Notes under the pieces: generated by a model
What the model was told of the DNA's origin: nothing
Databases searched by the model: none
The model's input: the letters and a program-made list of their open reading frames with translations, nothing else
Source: Candidatus Woesearchaeota archaeon
GTDB lineage: Archaea; Nanobdellota; Nanobdellia; Woesearchaeales; 21-14-0-10-32-9
Direction: 5' to 3'
Assembly: GCA_021735165.1 (NCBI GenBank)
Contig: JAIPHP010000008.1
Location: forward strand, 1 to 50,189
Length of the DNA: 50,189 nucleotides
Shown here: positions 2,183-17,505 of the stretch, one piece after another
How positions within the stretch are numbered: position 1 is the first letter of the stretch
Layout of the letters: the number at the start of each line of letters is the position of its first letter
Program-made: the position numbers and the translations under genes

Positions 2183-4099
2183 TCATTTCTTTTTCAAAAT
2201 AAACAAAGAAAAACCATCAAGAACGTTTTTTATAAAGCTAACAATCTCAAAAACATTTTGATTTAAAATATGTTCAACGCCAACATTGATTGATGCAATC
2301 TTATCACTAAAAATAGCTTCATCAAAATCCTTAGAATTTTTTCTAAGAATTGAAGACTTCCAAGAACTAGTAGATTCAGAGGCTTCTAAAATAAAAACAA
2401 ACCCCTCCTTAGCCAATACAGAATTTAGCTTTTTTAAAACCGAAGAAAAATCTTTAAAATAATGCCAAGAAAAAATAAAAGAAACACAAGAGAATTTATT
2501 ATCAGGAACAAAATCAAAAAAATCGCAATTAGCAAAAGAAACATTTTTTTTCTTAACAATAGACTTTGCTTGCTTAACCCTATTAGCATCAAGTTCTAAA
2601 CCGACATAAGAATTCAACTTGTTAGATAAATACCTAGATTTTTTACCATCTCCACAACCAACATCTAACAAAGAACACTTAGATAAAACAACATATTTTT
2701 TAAAATTTTCAAGCAAAAAATCCGCGATAATTTTATCCTTATTTCTAGCCTCCAATTGATCCTTAGTCAAAGAAGATTTGCCCTTAGAACTCCTATCCAA
2801 ATCAAATTTCAACTTAGAATACTGCAAAGGATTTTTTATTTTAGAACAAAAAGAATCAGGAGTACAAACTTGCAAATCTTGATAATAACGCTTGCAATTA
2901 TGAGGCGGAACAACGCCTTTGTTTTTCTTTAACTGCCTTAACTGACCATTCAAATAAACTTGACGCAAAGGCTCAGCATTTAATTTGTTCCAATCATTCA
3001 AACGTTTATCAATAGCGTCATAGTCCCAGCCACAACCTCTCAAAAAATTAACAAGAGTAAACAACAAACGCTTTTTGCCATCTTTAACTCCTAAAAAAGC
3101 ATTCTTTATACAAGGAGGAAACAACTCCTCACGAATAGCTTCTTCTGGCAACTTAAATTCTTTTTTACCAAGGGAATCGCTGATTTTTGACTCATCAAAA
3201 TTAAAATCATAAGCATTAACAAACAAACGACCAGCTTCACCAGAAACAGCAACAGACCTATCTAAAAAAGGAATATCAAAAGAAACACAATCAATCTCCG
3301 CATCAGATTTCCTAAATTTCAAAATTTTATCAACATTAACAGGAACACTGACAAGTTCAGATTTTTCATGCAAAGAAAAAGGCATCCTATACAAATGTCT
3401 AGAAGCAATCAAAACAGTATCAATCTCTAAAAACTCATCAACCATCAACTTATCAGAAACAGAAGAATCGTCAATAACAGCACGTTCATCTTTTTGAACA
3501 ACTAACTTATCATAAGCAATACCTGTTCTGCGCACAATATTATTAATATCGTTCTTCTCATACTTCAAAATAGCTTTCTCAAACAAAGGCCTAAGCTTAT
3601 CCCTAAGATAAAAAGCAATCTTTCTAGGCGCCTCAGGAAACAAATCCTTAACAAGCTTGCCGTTGAACTCATCAGGAAAAGCTTCGAAAGGAACCCCAAT
3701 ATGAAACCCTTTATTACCTGAAAACTTACAAGTTGCGCAACTGATTCCTTGGTCCTTTAAAATCTTAATTAACAAATGAGTTGCAATTTTACTGTAAACA
3801 AAATGATGACAATCAATATCCAAAATAAGATCCCAACCAACTCTTAACGCATCAAGATCTTGCTTTTTCATAGAACTGTTAATCTGCAAGGGATTGCTCC
3901 ACAATTCCTCAGAACAATGAAAACTACTAGCTTTTTTTTTAGCAAGCTCTAAAACATCTGCCTCATACATTAAAGTATCTGGCCTTTTACCAAAATAATC
4001 TTCAAAACGAATAGCAACCTCCCTATTCTTAGAATAGTGAACTAAAAGTCTCTGAACCTCCCTTCTTTTATAAAATTTTAACGTCTTAGACAAAAGCAT
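2183..4099 (-). CDS. priS: Single-chain DNA primase PriS-PriL(CTD) fused to a class I methyltransferase
   Basis: 638 residues from the ATG at 4099; an upstream ATG at 4120 is possible. That ATG lies 26 nt from a TATA box, which favours a leaderless start at 4099. Residues 1-290 are the archaeo-eukaryotic primase catalytic fold: the Asp pair DID (94-96), SGNKGFH (127-133) and RMPFSLH (about 238-244). Residues 320-430 match the PriL C-terminal iron-sulfur domain, with Cys at 330, 402, 412 and 418 (PPCIK, PPHNC, VCTPDSFC). This gives both primase subunits in one chain, as known in Nanoarchaeum. Residues 460-638 add a Rossmann SAM-methyltransferase with motif I LLDVGCGDG (about 477-485) and acidic LELD, which I do not know as a usual primase partner. 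Near RMPFSLH, the position that often carries the third metal Asp reads Ala-Ser. Role: RNA primer synthesis; the methyltransferase substrate is unknown. Confidence 0.88.
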   Translation of the reverse strand: MLLSKTLKFYKRREVQRLLVHYSKNREVAIRFEDYFGKRPDTLMYEADVLELAKKKASSFHCSEELWSNPLQINSSMKKQDLDALRVGWDLILDIDCHHFVYSKIATHLLIKILKDQGISCATCKFSGNKGFHIGVPFEAFPDEFNGKLVKDLFPEAPRKIAFYLRDKLRPLFEKAILKYEKNDINNIVRRTGIAYDKLVVQKDERAVIDDSSVSDKLMVDEFLEIDTVLIASRHLYRMPFSLHEKSELVSVPVNVDKILKFRKSDAEIDCVSFDIPFLDRSVAVSGEAGRLFVNAYDFNFDESKISDSLGKKEFKLPEEAIREELFPPCIKNAFLGVKDGKKRLLFTLVNFLRGCGWDYDAIDKRLNDWNKLNAEPLRQVYLNGQLRQLKKNKGVVPPHNCKRYYQDLQVCTPDSFCSKIKNPLQYSKLKFDLDRSSKGKSSLTKDQLEARNKDKIIADFLLENFKKYVVLSKCSLLDVGCGDGKKSRYLSNKLNSYVGLELDANRVKQAKSIVKKKNVSFANCDFFDFVPDNKFSCVSFIFSWHYFKDFSSVLKKLNSVLAKEGFVFILEASESTSSWKSSILRKNSKDFDEAIFSDKIASINVGVEHILNQNVFEIVSFIKNVLDGFSLFILKKK

Positions 4100-4120
4100 A
4101 CAAGAAAGAATGACCAGCAT

Positions 4121-14257: not shown

Positions 14258-17200
14258 TCACATCCTTTTAACAACACCGTGTTTAGGATTAAAAATATCT
14301 CCCTTTCTTTTGAGATTGTTCAAAATCTCTTCTGTTTTATCACCACTCATACCTTTAATCTCAGCTTCCCTAATAATATCTTCAATAGGAACAACATCCG
14401 TATTAAGTGCCTTTTCTAACTCGACAATAATCTCTTTAACAGTATGCACGTTTCCTCTTTGAGTTGCAGTTATCCCTGTTGCAATCCTATCAATATCAAA
14501 TTTTCCAGTTTCCTCATCCAAACCAATCAAAGTCAAGCAATGATGCAACAAATCAATAGCTCTTCTTGCATCAGCTTTAGTAACTGTTTTAGAAAGCCTA
14601 GTTTTAGCACTTGCCTCAGAAAGCCTAACCAAACCTTCTAATTGTCTAGCACTTATAGGAACAGACTTTATCTTCTCATCACCGCTCCCTGAATTCCTCA
14701 TACTAACAAAATAATCCTTAATTTCACTCATAGCAGGCTCAGTTAAAACAGGTTGAATTCTTTGCTTTGCATAAGCAACATACAACTTAATAAGCTCTGA
14801 ACTAACAGGAGTATCCTCAGAAATCTGATCCTTGTGTAATTTTAAAATAAAACTGGCAAGACGCTCGTCCTTATCTTTATCGGGCAAGTCCTTAACAGGA
14901 AAAATTAAATCAAACCTATTAATAAGAGGCGGCGGTAAATCAATTTGTTTAACAAGAACCTCATATGGATCGAATCTGCCAAACTTTGGATTGGCCGCGG
15001 CCAAAACGGTTGTTTCAGACCTTAAAGTAGCTTGAATGTTAGCTTTGCTAATACTAATGCTTTGTTGTTCCAAAGCTTCGTGCATAGCGCTAGTATCTTC
15101 CGCGCTCATCTTATCAAGCTCATCAATGCAAACCATACCTTTATTTGCTAATACTAAAGCCCCGGCTTCTAAAGCCCAACCACGAGTAAATTCATCACGA
15201 ACAACAGCAGCAGTAAGCCCTGCACCAGATGCACCTTTGCCAGATACAAAACGAGTTTTAGGTGCAACAATAGACACTCTTTTTAATAATTGAGATTTTC
15301 CTGAATTATGACACAATATTCCGTTTGCTATAAATGATTTCGTTGATGGAACTTCAAAGTCATAAACATCCTCAAAACCTTCTAATTCTATTGAAACAAC
15401 GCGTTCATAAGTTTGAGGCTTTTCTCTCATTTGTTGATTGTTCTTTATTTTAATATAATCTAATACTTGTCTTAGTTTTTCTTTTTTCTTCTTCGATTGA
15501 AATCCTATTTCTTTAGCAAATTTCTTTATATTCGAAGATCTTCTTATTGTTAAGTTGTCTTCTATTATTCTCCCTTGTATTCCGAAGTATAAAAGAAGTA
15601 TTTGCACATCTTTTAACAATTGCTCATTTTTTGATTTTAACTGAACAGATAAACTTCCACGCCCTTTTCCAAAAACACAACCATCAGCTTCAAAAATCCA
15701 ACTCAAAAATTCAGAAACGACTTCTTTTTTACTTGAAAAAATTTTCTGAGGAACTTTTTTTTCAGATAAAAAACTTAACGCATTTGTTATTATTTTGCTG
15801 TTTATATCCAAGGTTGTTAATTTTTGTTCTCTGTTTATTTTTCTTATTTTTCCTTTTTCTTTTATTTCGGTTTCTTTTATTAAGTTTTTAGTTTTATATA
15901 TTGATGGTTTTATTCCAAACTCTTTTATTACAAATTTTGATAATATATCTATCAAATCAAGTTCCTCTTCATTAACGTAACAGGAAATCCTCTGTTTTTT
16001 TGAATGGATATTGCCATCTCCTAAAATATATCCATACAGACCTGCAAGTTCTTTGGTTAATTTTTTGGGAAGCACTACTACTTTCGACTGATTTGCAGCA
16101 GTTATTTTTTTAAAATCTGTATCAACCAATTTTTTTACATTATTAGGTATTTTTGGCATGACTCTTATTTTCGATTCAGTAGAAAGATGATCCGCACGAG
16201 TCCAACCTTTTTTTGTCATGAATGGTTGATTAAATGTGCACACCATTTCTTTTCCAGTTTCTGTTTTTATCTTGAGAACTGGTTGTTTTTTATAATGTTG
16301 AAAATTTGATGTGAACGCATAAGGCTTGTCATTTGGCCCTTTCCTTATTTGACATAACGCTTCTTTTATTTTCTGTTTGTGTTTAATTCCAAAGTCTTTA
16401 ATTTGAACCATTCCTTTTGAATGAGTAGCCACTTGAGAAGTTCCGTGAATACAGCCAGGATCACCTATTAATAAAATATGAATATCTCCTCTTCTCTTAA
16501 CACCATCATCTTGTTCTTTTAATCTTCCTCCAAACATTTGAAGCAAAAGAGCTTCTTTAATCCGATCATGACCATAAATACTAGGCGCAATACTCCTAAC
16601 AAGCTTATCATAAACCTGCGGATCCTTTGACAAAGCTAAGATCTCTTTTTCTTTCTCCTTGGAAACTTCCAAAGTCTCAAACTCTTCTTGCAACGGATTA
16701 ATATAATTAACTTCTAACATCAGCTCATAACGAGTACTTTTACCACCTGTTTGAAGAGTTATAGGAACTTCTTTAATTACACCCGTAACAACAATTTTAG
16801 AACCAGGATTTGTTTTCTTATCAGATATGGGACTTACTAAATCATTTTTCAAAAAAATATTTATTCTTTTAGGTTGTTCACCTCCCTGCATATCCTCAGG
16901 ATCTTCTTCTAGAACAATTTTTTGAGCATCAACTAACTCTTTGCTAAGAAGATTAAACTTCCCCTTTCTACCACAAACATTACAACTATTGGGCTCTCTG
17001 AACTTTTGATCAAGCTGAAGAACAGGAATTATATTACCACAACTAGGACACTCAAAACGAGCACTAGTAACCTGCGGTCTAACATCTGATTTTTGCCTAA
17101 CCAAACCTTTAAATTGATACATCTTGTTCAAATTCTTACTTCTTATATCTCTGACTGAAAGATGCGAAGAAGATGGTAAATCAAAAAATCTTACATTTAA

Positions 17201-17431
17201 TTTGACGTCATCAACACCGAATTCGAATTTACTAATAGAATATTCTGCAGCTTTAATGACATCCTCAGGAGTTTCTAATAAATCTTCGGCTAATTCAACA
17301 TCAAATCTTGCCAAATCAGAAAAAGGAATAGAAATGTGTTCTTCACCTTTATTTGCAGCACTAAGTAAAATATCCCTATAATTGGTGTCAAAAAATTCAT
17401 TAAATTTTTGTATTTGTTCTTTGGCATCCAA
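14258..17431 (-). CDS. mcm: Replicative helicase MCM, interrupted by an intein
   Basis: 1057 residues as translated, about 674 after removal of a 383-residue intein, the usual archaeal MCM size. The N-terminal domain carries a zinc finger (CPSCGN...CNVCGR). The AAA+ domain has Walker A split as GDPG | SGKSQ around the intein, Walker B MVCIDELDKM, sensor 1 LAAANPKFGRFDP and the arginine-finger segment INRFDLIFPV. A winged-helix domain ends the protein. The start is taken as TTG 17431 because a GAGGGG site lies 7 nt upstream; TTG 17446 in the same frame is possible. It lies downstream of tbp on the same strand. Function: hexameric 3'-5' unwinding at forks. Activity requires protein splicing, since the ATP-binding loop is broken. 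Confidence 0.95.
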   Translation of the reverse strand: MDAKEQIQKFNEFFDTNYRDILLSAANKGEEHISIPFSDLARFDVELAEDLLETPEDVIKAAEYSISKFEFGVDDVKLNVRFFDLPSSSHLSVRDIRSKNLNKMYQFKGLVRQKSDVRPQVTSARFECPSCGNIIPVLQLDQKFREPNSCNVCGRKGKFNLLSKELVDAQKIVLEEDPEDMQGGEQPKRINIFLKNDLVSPISDKKTNPGSKIVVTGVIKEVPITLQTGGKSTRYELMLEVNYINPLQEEFETLEVSKEKEKEILALSKDPQVYDKLVRSIAPSIYGHDRIKEALLLQMFGGRLKEQDDGVKRRGDIHILLIGDPGCIHGTSQVATHSKGMVQIKDFGIKHKQKIKEALCQIRKGPNDKPYAFTSNFQHYKKQPVLKIKTETGKEMVCTFNQPFMTKKGWTRADHLSTESKIRVMPKIPNNVKKLVDTDFKKITAANQSKVVVLPKKLTKELAGLYGYILGDGNIHSKKQRISCYVNEEELDLIDILSKFVIKEFGIKPSIYKTKNLIKETEIKEKGKIRKINREQKLTTLDINSKIITNALSFLSEKKVPQKIFSSKKEVVSEFLSWIFEADGCVFGKGRGSLSVQLKSKNEQLLKDVQILLLYFGIQGRIIEDNLTIRRSSNIKKFAKEIGFQSKKKKEKLRQVLDYIKIKNNQQMREKPQTYERVVSIELEGFEDVYDFEVPSTKSFIANGILCHNSGKSQLLKRVSIVAPKTRFVSGKGASGAGLTAAVVRDEFTRGWALEAGALVLANKGMVCIDELDKMSAEDTSAMHEALEQQSISISKANIQATLRSETTVLAAANPKFGRFDPYEVLVKQIDLPPPLINRFDLIFPVKDLPDKDKDERLASFILKLHKDQISEDTPVSSELIKLYVAYAKQRIQPVLTEPAMSEIKDYFVSMRNSGSGDEKIKSVPISARQLEGLVRLSEASAKTRLSKTVTKADARRAIDLLHHCLTLIGLDEETGKFDIDRIATGITATQRGNVHTVKEIIVELEKALNTDVVPIEDIIREAEIKGMSGDKTEEILNNLKRKGDIFNPKHGVVKRM
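15305..16453 (-). other. Intein with LAGLIDADG homing endonuclease in the MCM P-loop
   Basis: The insert starts at Cys (codon 16453-16451, CIHGTSQVATHSKG) and ends ANGILCHN (Asn codon at 15305-15307), followed by the extein Ser of SGKSQ. These are the Cys1, His-Asn and +1 nucleophile expected for splicing. It is 383 residues, long enough for an endonuclease, and two dodecapeptide motifs are visible: GLYGYILGDGN and FLSWIFEADG. The block B motif, normally TxxH, reads CTFNQPFMT, with Gln where His is usual. The T/C-rich + strand composition here differs a little from the flanking MCM code, in line with independent movement. Confidence 0.93.
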
Positions 17432-17505
17432 TAAGCATCCCCTCAAAAGTATAAAAAATCAAATAAAAGAAAAAACTAACTAGTAAATAACCGGAAAACC
17501 TTCGA

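Follow-up and report, generated by a model that had tools for sequence, protein, structure and literature searches.

A single-chain archaeal primase with a C-terminal class I methyltransferase domain in one Woesearchaeota genus

Known primase fusions and the present gene

Dombrowski et al. 2020 (PMC7414124) described the fusion of PriS with PriL into one chain as a synapomorphy of DPANN Cluster 2. The single-chain proteins of DPANN Cluster 2 and Undinarchaeota (PMC7414124) have the same order as the protein described here, PriS and then the PriL Fe-S domain, with the same catalytic and cysteine motifs. However, they have no methyltransferase (MTase) and end in a short basic tail. Phages and conjugative elements encode polyvalent proteins, whose many domain combinations include both primase and methylase domains (PMC5512222). 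In these mobile-element proteins the primases are of the Toprim or PrimPol kind, and the methylases modify DNA adenine. PriL of Heimdall-group Asgard archaea and of eukaryotes carries a C-terminal extension of three helices enclosing the Fe-S cluster (PMC12770985).

The gene analyzed here, priSL-MTase, lies in a stretch of 50,189 nucleotides (the window) from a Candidatus Woesearchaeota archaeon with a genome of 1.1 Mb (97.9% complete). In contrast to the polyvalent proteins, it joins a chromosomal replicative primase to an MTase of non-DNA type. Nor does it appear to belong to a mobile element, since the protein has no match in 50,697 phage records and the window contains MCM, PolD, Cdc6, and Hef. 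It resembles the extended PriL of the Heimdall group and eukaryotes in having an extra domain past the PriL Fe-S domain, whereas that extension is made of three helices with no enzyme fold. No primase-MTase chain of this kind was found in the literature searched. The PriS-PriL fusion itself is ordinary and not new; the novelty is the addition of the MTase, which is narrow in distribution. The first-pass annotation had located the novelty there as well, and this judgment stands.

Domain architecture and conservation of the fused protein

On the reverse strand, positions 2183-4120 form a single uninterrupted open frame of 645 codons in the ORF listing. The start at 4099 is favored by the start of the homologue, MLLSKTLKFYKR, and by those of the sister genera (MLLSKTL..). 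The features are as follows.

2183-4099 (-): priSL-MTase gene, 638 aa and stop; longest frame to 4120, 645 aa
3812-3820 (-): PriS metal-binding motif D101-I-D103, kept in all aligned family members
3332-3790 (-): PriS catalytic domain core (PF01896), by Pfam
2885-3142 (-): PriL C-terminal (Fe-S) domain (PF04104), by Pfam
2846-3112 (-): stretch with the four Fe-S cysteines, C337 (3110-3112), C409 (2894-2896), C419 (2864-2866), and C425 (2846-2848), by sequence and alignment
2735-2803 (-): junction with the remnant of a basic tail, reading KGKSSLTKDQLEARNKDK here, by alignment
2186-2734 (-): class I SAM MTase domain, residues 463-645, by Pfam and structure model
2645-2671 (-): MTase motif I LLDVGCGDG, SAM binding, by sequence
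2318-2365 (-): subfamily signature SWKSSILRKNSKDFDE after β5, likely on the substrate side

PF01896 matches residues 111-263 (E 1.2e-10 to 7e-12). PF04104 matches residues 327-411 (E 9e-5) with 22.3 bits, 0.1 bit short of the cut-off of 22.4 bits. The NCBIfam PriL and PriS models (NF003051 among the matches) agree with the Pfam calls, and a PDB PriL chain also supports them. D101-I-D103, taken as the DxD motif of PriS, and the third acidic residue, D234, are invariant in the family alignment; catalysis is predicted. Each of the two Pfam models has one match genome-wide, both in this frame, which is thus the only primase found. Hef, MCM, PolD DP2 and DP1, and Orc1/Cdc6 lie at 5128-26944 of the window, and the MCM helicase (14258-17446) contains a LAGLIDADG-type intein. 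Hef adjoins or sits near priSL in several relatives.

The Fe-S cysteine sites in other primases should also be noted. One sister genus includes two single-chain primases (L053 2434-3825 in G008 and L055 1620-3011 in G005) in which all four cysteines are replaced, the sites reading FPPT, PPHNY, RVW/RVY, and DLE/ALE. All four are retained in their congener G002 (L054), and two of the four are absent (PPNS, VEHSD) from the PriSL of G012 (L012). A natural cluster-free primase would be directly relevant to the dispute over what the primase [4Fe-4S] cluster does. Several genomes of the order (G020, G043, G052, and G053) have a second frame of 250-270 aa, whose match to the PriS profile covers the N-terminal half.

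In the C-terminal part, PF08241 matches residues 485-577 (E 1.2e-13). The full-length AlphaFold model, built from two sequences, has a pLDDT of 38, too low for any use; the model of the MTase domain (pLDDT 69, pTM 0.68) has a complete Rossmann-like fold. Both the GxGxG motif I (LLDVGCGDG) and the acidic end of β2 (GLELD / GIDLD) are present. The PDB fold matches are class I MTases (E 3e-10, TM 0.5-0.65). The closest, 3l8d, ChlM, NodS, UbiG, and BioC, are only 12-21% identical, so that structure does not fix the substrate. Viral fold matches are generic class I MTases only. The amino-type DNA MTase motif IV, (N/D/S)PP(Y/F/W), is absent, the region reading IFSWHYFKDF / IFSWRYMKNF. The domain shares its full extent, Rossmann core, motif I, and acidic β2 end with the Methyltransf_11/23/25/31 class I MTases. 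It differs from them in being joined to a primase and in its subfamily, which is small and unnamed and has an NWxSPxLRKDNPEFDE-like segment. The fused MTase thus appears to resemble small-molecule or protein MTases, and SAM binding and methyl transfer are predicted. The Pfam and NCBIfam matches and the comparison of starts bear out the earlier proposal that one chain of 638 residues combines PriS, the PriL domain with its Fe-S cysteines, and an entire class I MTase.

A congener MAG (G001, Candidatus Woesearchaeota archaeon Tobar13m-G34, contig of L032) has the same three-domain frame with no stops, so the continuity of the reading frame also held. The two proteins are 67% identical as a whole, with 76% for the PriSL part and 46% for the MTase; the neighboring Hef shows 80% identity over 540 residues. 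The NG86 dN is 0.53 for the MTase and 0.20 for PriSL, the MTase evolving about 2.7 times faster. A codon model rejects ω = 1 for the MTase (2ΔlnL 64.5, 188 codons) and for PriSL (503.6), although divergence in the model is saturated and the ω value itself is unreliable. Purifying selection acts on the fused MTase. Both fused copies retain SAM motif I and 18 of the 34 sites that are invariant in the subfamily. The other 16 are not retained in both; for example, the His after motif IV is changed in G001 and the β3 acidic position in G000. These changes make full MTase activity uncertain.

Distribution and origin of the methyltransferase

PriSL-MTase is known in two species of a single genus. In seven genomes of the family outside the genus (G002-G005, G007, G008, and G010), the PriSL alignment reaches query residues 461-463, where the sister protein stops; the next gene varies and is in no case an MTase. 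The first-pass annotation had held that a conserved stop at the junction together with a separately encoded MTase would speak against the fusion. The stop is present in the sister genera, but an adjacent MTase at the fused position is not, which indicates a genuine fusion confined to this lineage. The tail of the sister genera, KGRPxLTxEQKEMRRKYREKKKK, aligns with KGKSxLTxxQxxARNxDK in the fused proteins, where the MTase follows directly.

MTase-profile and PriS searches of 353 genomes of the order gave no other PriSL-MTase among the matches listed, nor did the class and phylum samples among theirs. Because the number of candidates taken from each genome was limited, rare cases may have escaped. 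Several long frames were rejected as fusions of this kind. The PriSL frame of G047 is extended by an upstream open frame only, that of G038 by a low-complexity tail, those of G022 and G355 by inteins, and that of G260 by a NUDIX-like domain; the frames of G217 and G058 have MTase matches and no primase. The apparent inteins lie at two different PriS sites, SGNKGFHI and WDL-CLDID (L061 in G022 and L139 in G355). The NUDIX-like domain (L062, G260:C50:7500-13000; PF00293, 4.5e-6) is C-terminal to PriSL and has apparently lost the Nudix-box glutamates. It is absent from the PriSL of G261 and G262, which belong to the same family as G260.

The best stand-alone relatives of the fused MTase among the matches listed are in G407 (181 aa, 35-37% identity, 156 bits), G491, and G062. 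All three share with it S(W/F)H after β4, E..E/D....W....L, and FD. The subfamily is small, stand-alone, and sporadic in related archaea. In a small tree, the two fused domains group together (92/90) beside these three relatives, with weak support at deeper nodes. The start Met of the G407 enzyme aligns just past the junction, suggesting that an entire enzyme was added to a shortened PriSL tail. The MTase and the primase are on different contigs in G407 and G491, and the stand-alone relatives have no replication gene context. Plasmid matches of a stand-alone relative are distant generic MTases. An MTase gene lying head-to-head with priSL in G003 was rejected as the ancestor, being 19-20% identical and lacking the signature.

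Possible roles of the fused domain

We propose that a standard DPANN single-chain primase gained a complete small class I SAM MTase at its C-terminal basic tail, and that this took place in the ancestor of a single Woesearchaeota genus. The PriSL part would prime DNA as in the sister genera, judging from the conservation of its catalytic and Fe-S residues. The MTase most likely still acts on a protein or small molecule, as its stand-alone relatives would, and may be carried along by the primase as a tethered passenger. Such an accidental, lineage-specific fusion, with the MTase acting independently while anchored to the primase, is close to an even call. It is favored over methylation directed at the replisome and over a mainly structural or DNA-binding module, because the relatives stand alone away from primase and the sister primases lack the domain. 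On the other hand, an essential enzyme might be expected to shed a domain that is purely a passenger.

Alternatively, the fused MTase may methylate the primase or a partner (PolD, MCM, or Orc1/Cdc6) brought close by tethering. Small class I MTases can use protein substrates. The domain is attached to the only primase found, is kept under purifying selection in two species, and lies within the same 50-kb window as the genes for MCM, PolD DP1/DP2, and Orc1/Cdc6. However, its stand-alone relatives lack replication context, the other primases of the family do without an MTase, and the fusion is seen in one genus only. We consider this role unlikely, though worth keeping in view.

Slightly less likely is a mainly structural or DNA-binding role, in which a basic module (pI 9.2) replaces the basic tail of the sister genera while catalysis decays. 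The overwriting of the conserved tail at the junction, the pI of the MTase domain (9.2-9.3), its fast evolution, and the NUDIX-like domain with lost Nudix glutamates at the same position in G260 are consistent with this role. That some residues invariant in the subfamily are missing from one fused copy or the other also keeps it in consideration. Contrarily, the SAM-binding motif and signature residues persist in both copies, and the nearest three stand-alone relatives are basic too (pI 8.3-9.1).

The idea that a replicative primase with its own protein or primer MTase marks each priming event or the bound replisome by SAM-dependent methylation is doubtful. The first-pass annotation had suggested that the enzyme may modify the primer or its 5' end, or else a partner in the replisome. 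This suggestion received no direct support, the domain being of the Methyltransf_11/25 kind without motif IV and its nearest relatives standing alone away from primase. A cap-like mark at initiation, placed on the base, ribose, or 5' triphosphate of the primer, is very improbable. The MTase adjoins the PriL domain, the PriL-CTD contacts the initiating nucleotide, and a distant structural likeness to cap N7 MTases is found among many other class I matches. Nevertheless, there is no DNA-MTase motif IV, the structure matches are mostly small-molecule MTases at 12-21% identity, and a methyl mark would be transient because primers are removed.

An assembly or frameshift artefact, suspected earlier at about position 2750, is scarcely credible even though MAGs are the only source, because the same stop-free architecture recurs in a second species at 67% identity, selection acts on both parts, no Ns are present, and no in-frame ATG or GTG occurs at the junction, only TTG leucine codons.

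Should the MTase act on the replisome, it would be, to our knowledge, the first modifier built into a replicative primase. A self-marking primase, if true, would be a new kind of link from methyl metabolism to replication initiation. If the MTase is a passenger, whole enzyme domains can accrete at the C-terminus of the single-chain DPANN primase, an MTase here and a NUDIX-like domain in G260, and the case helps to judge how far gene fusion can signal functional linkage.
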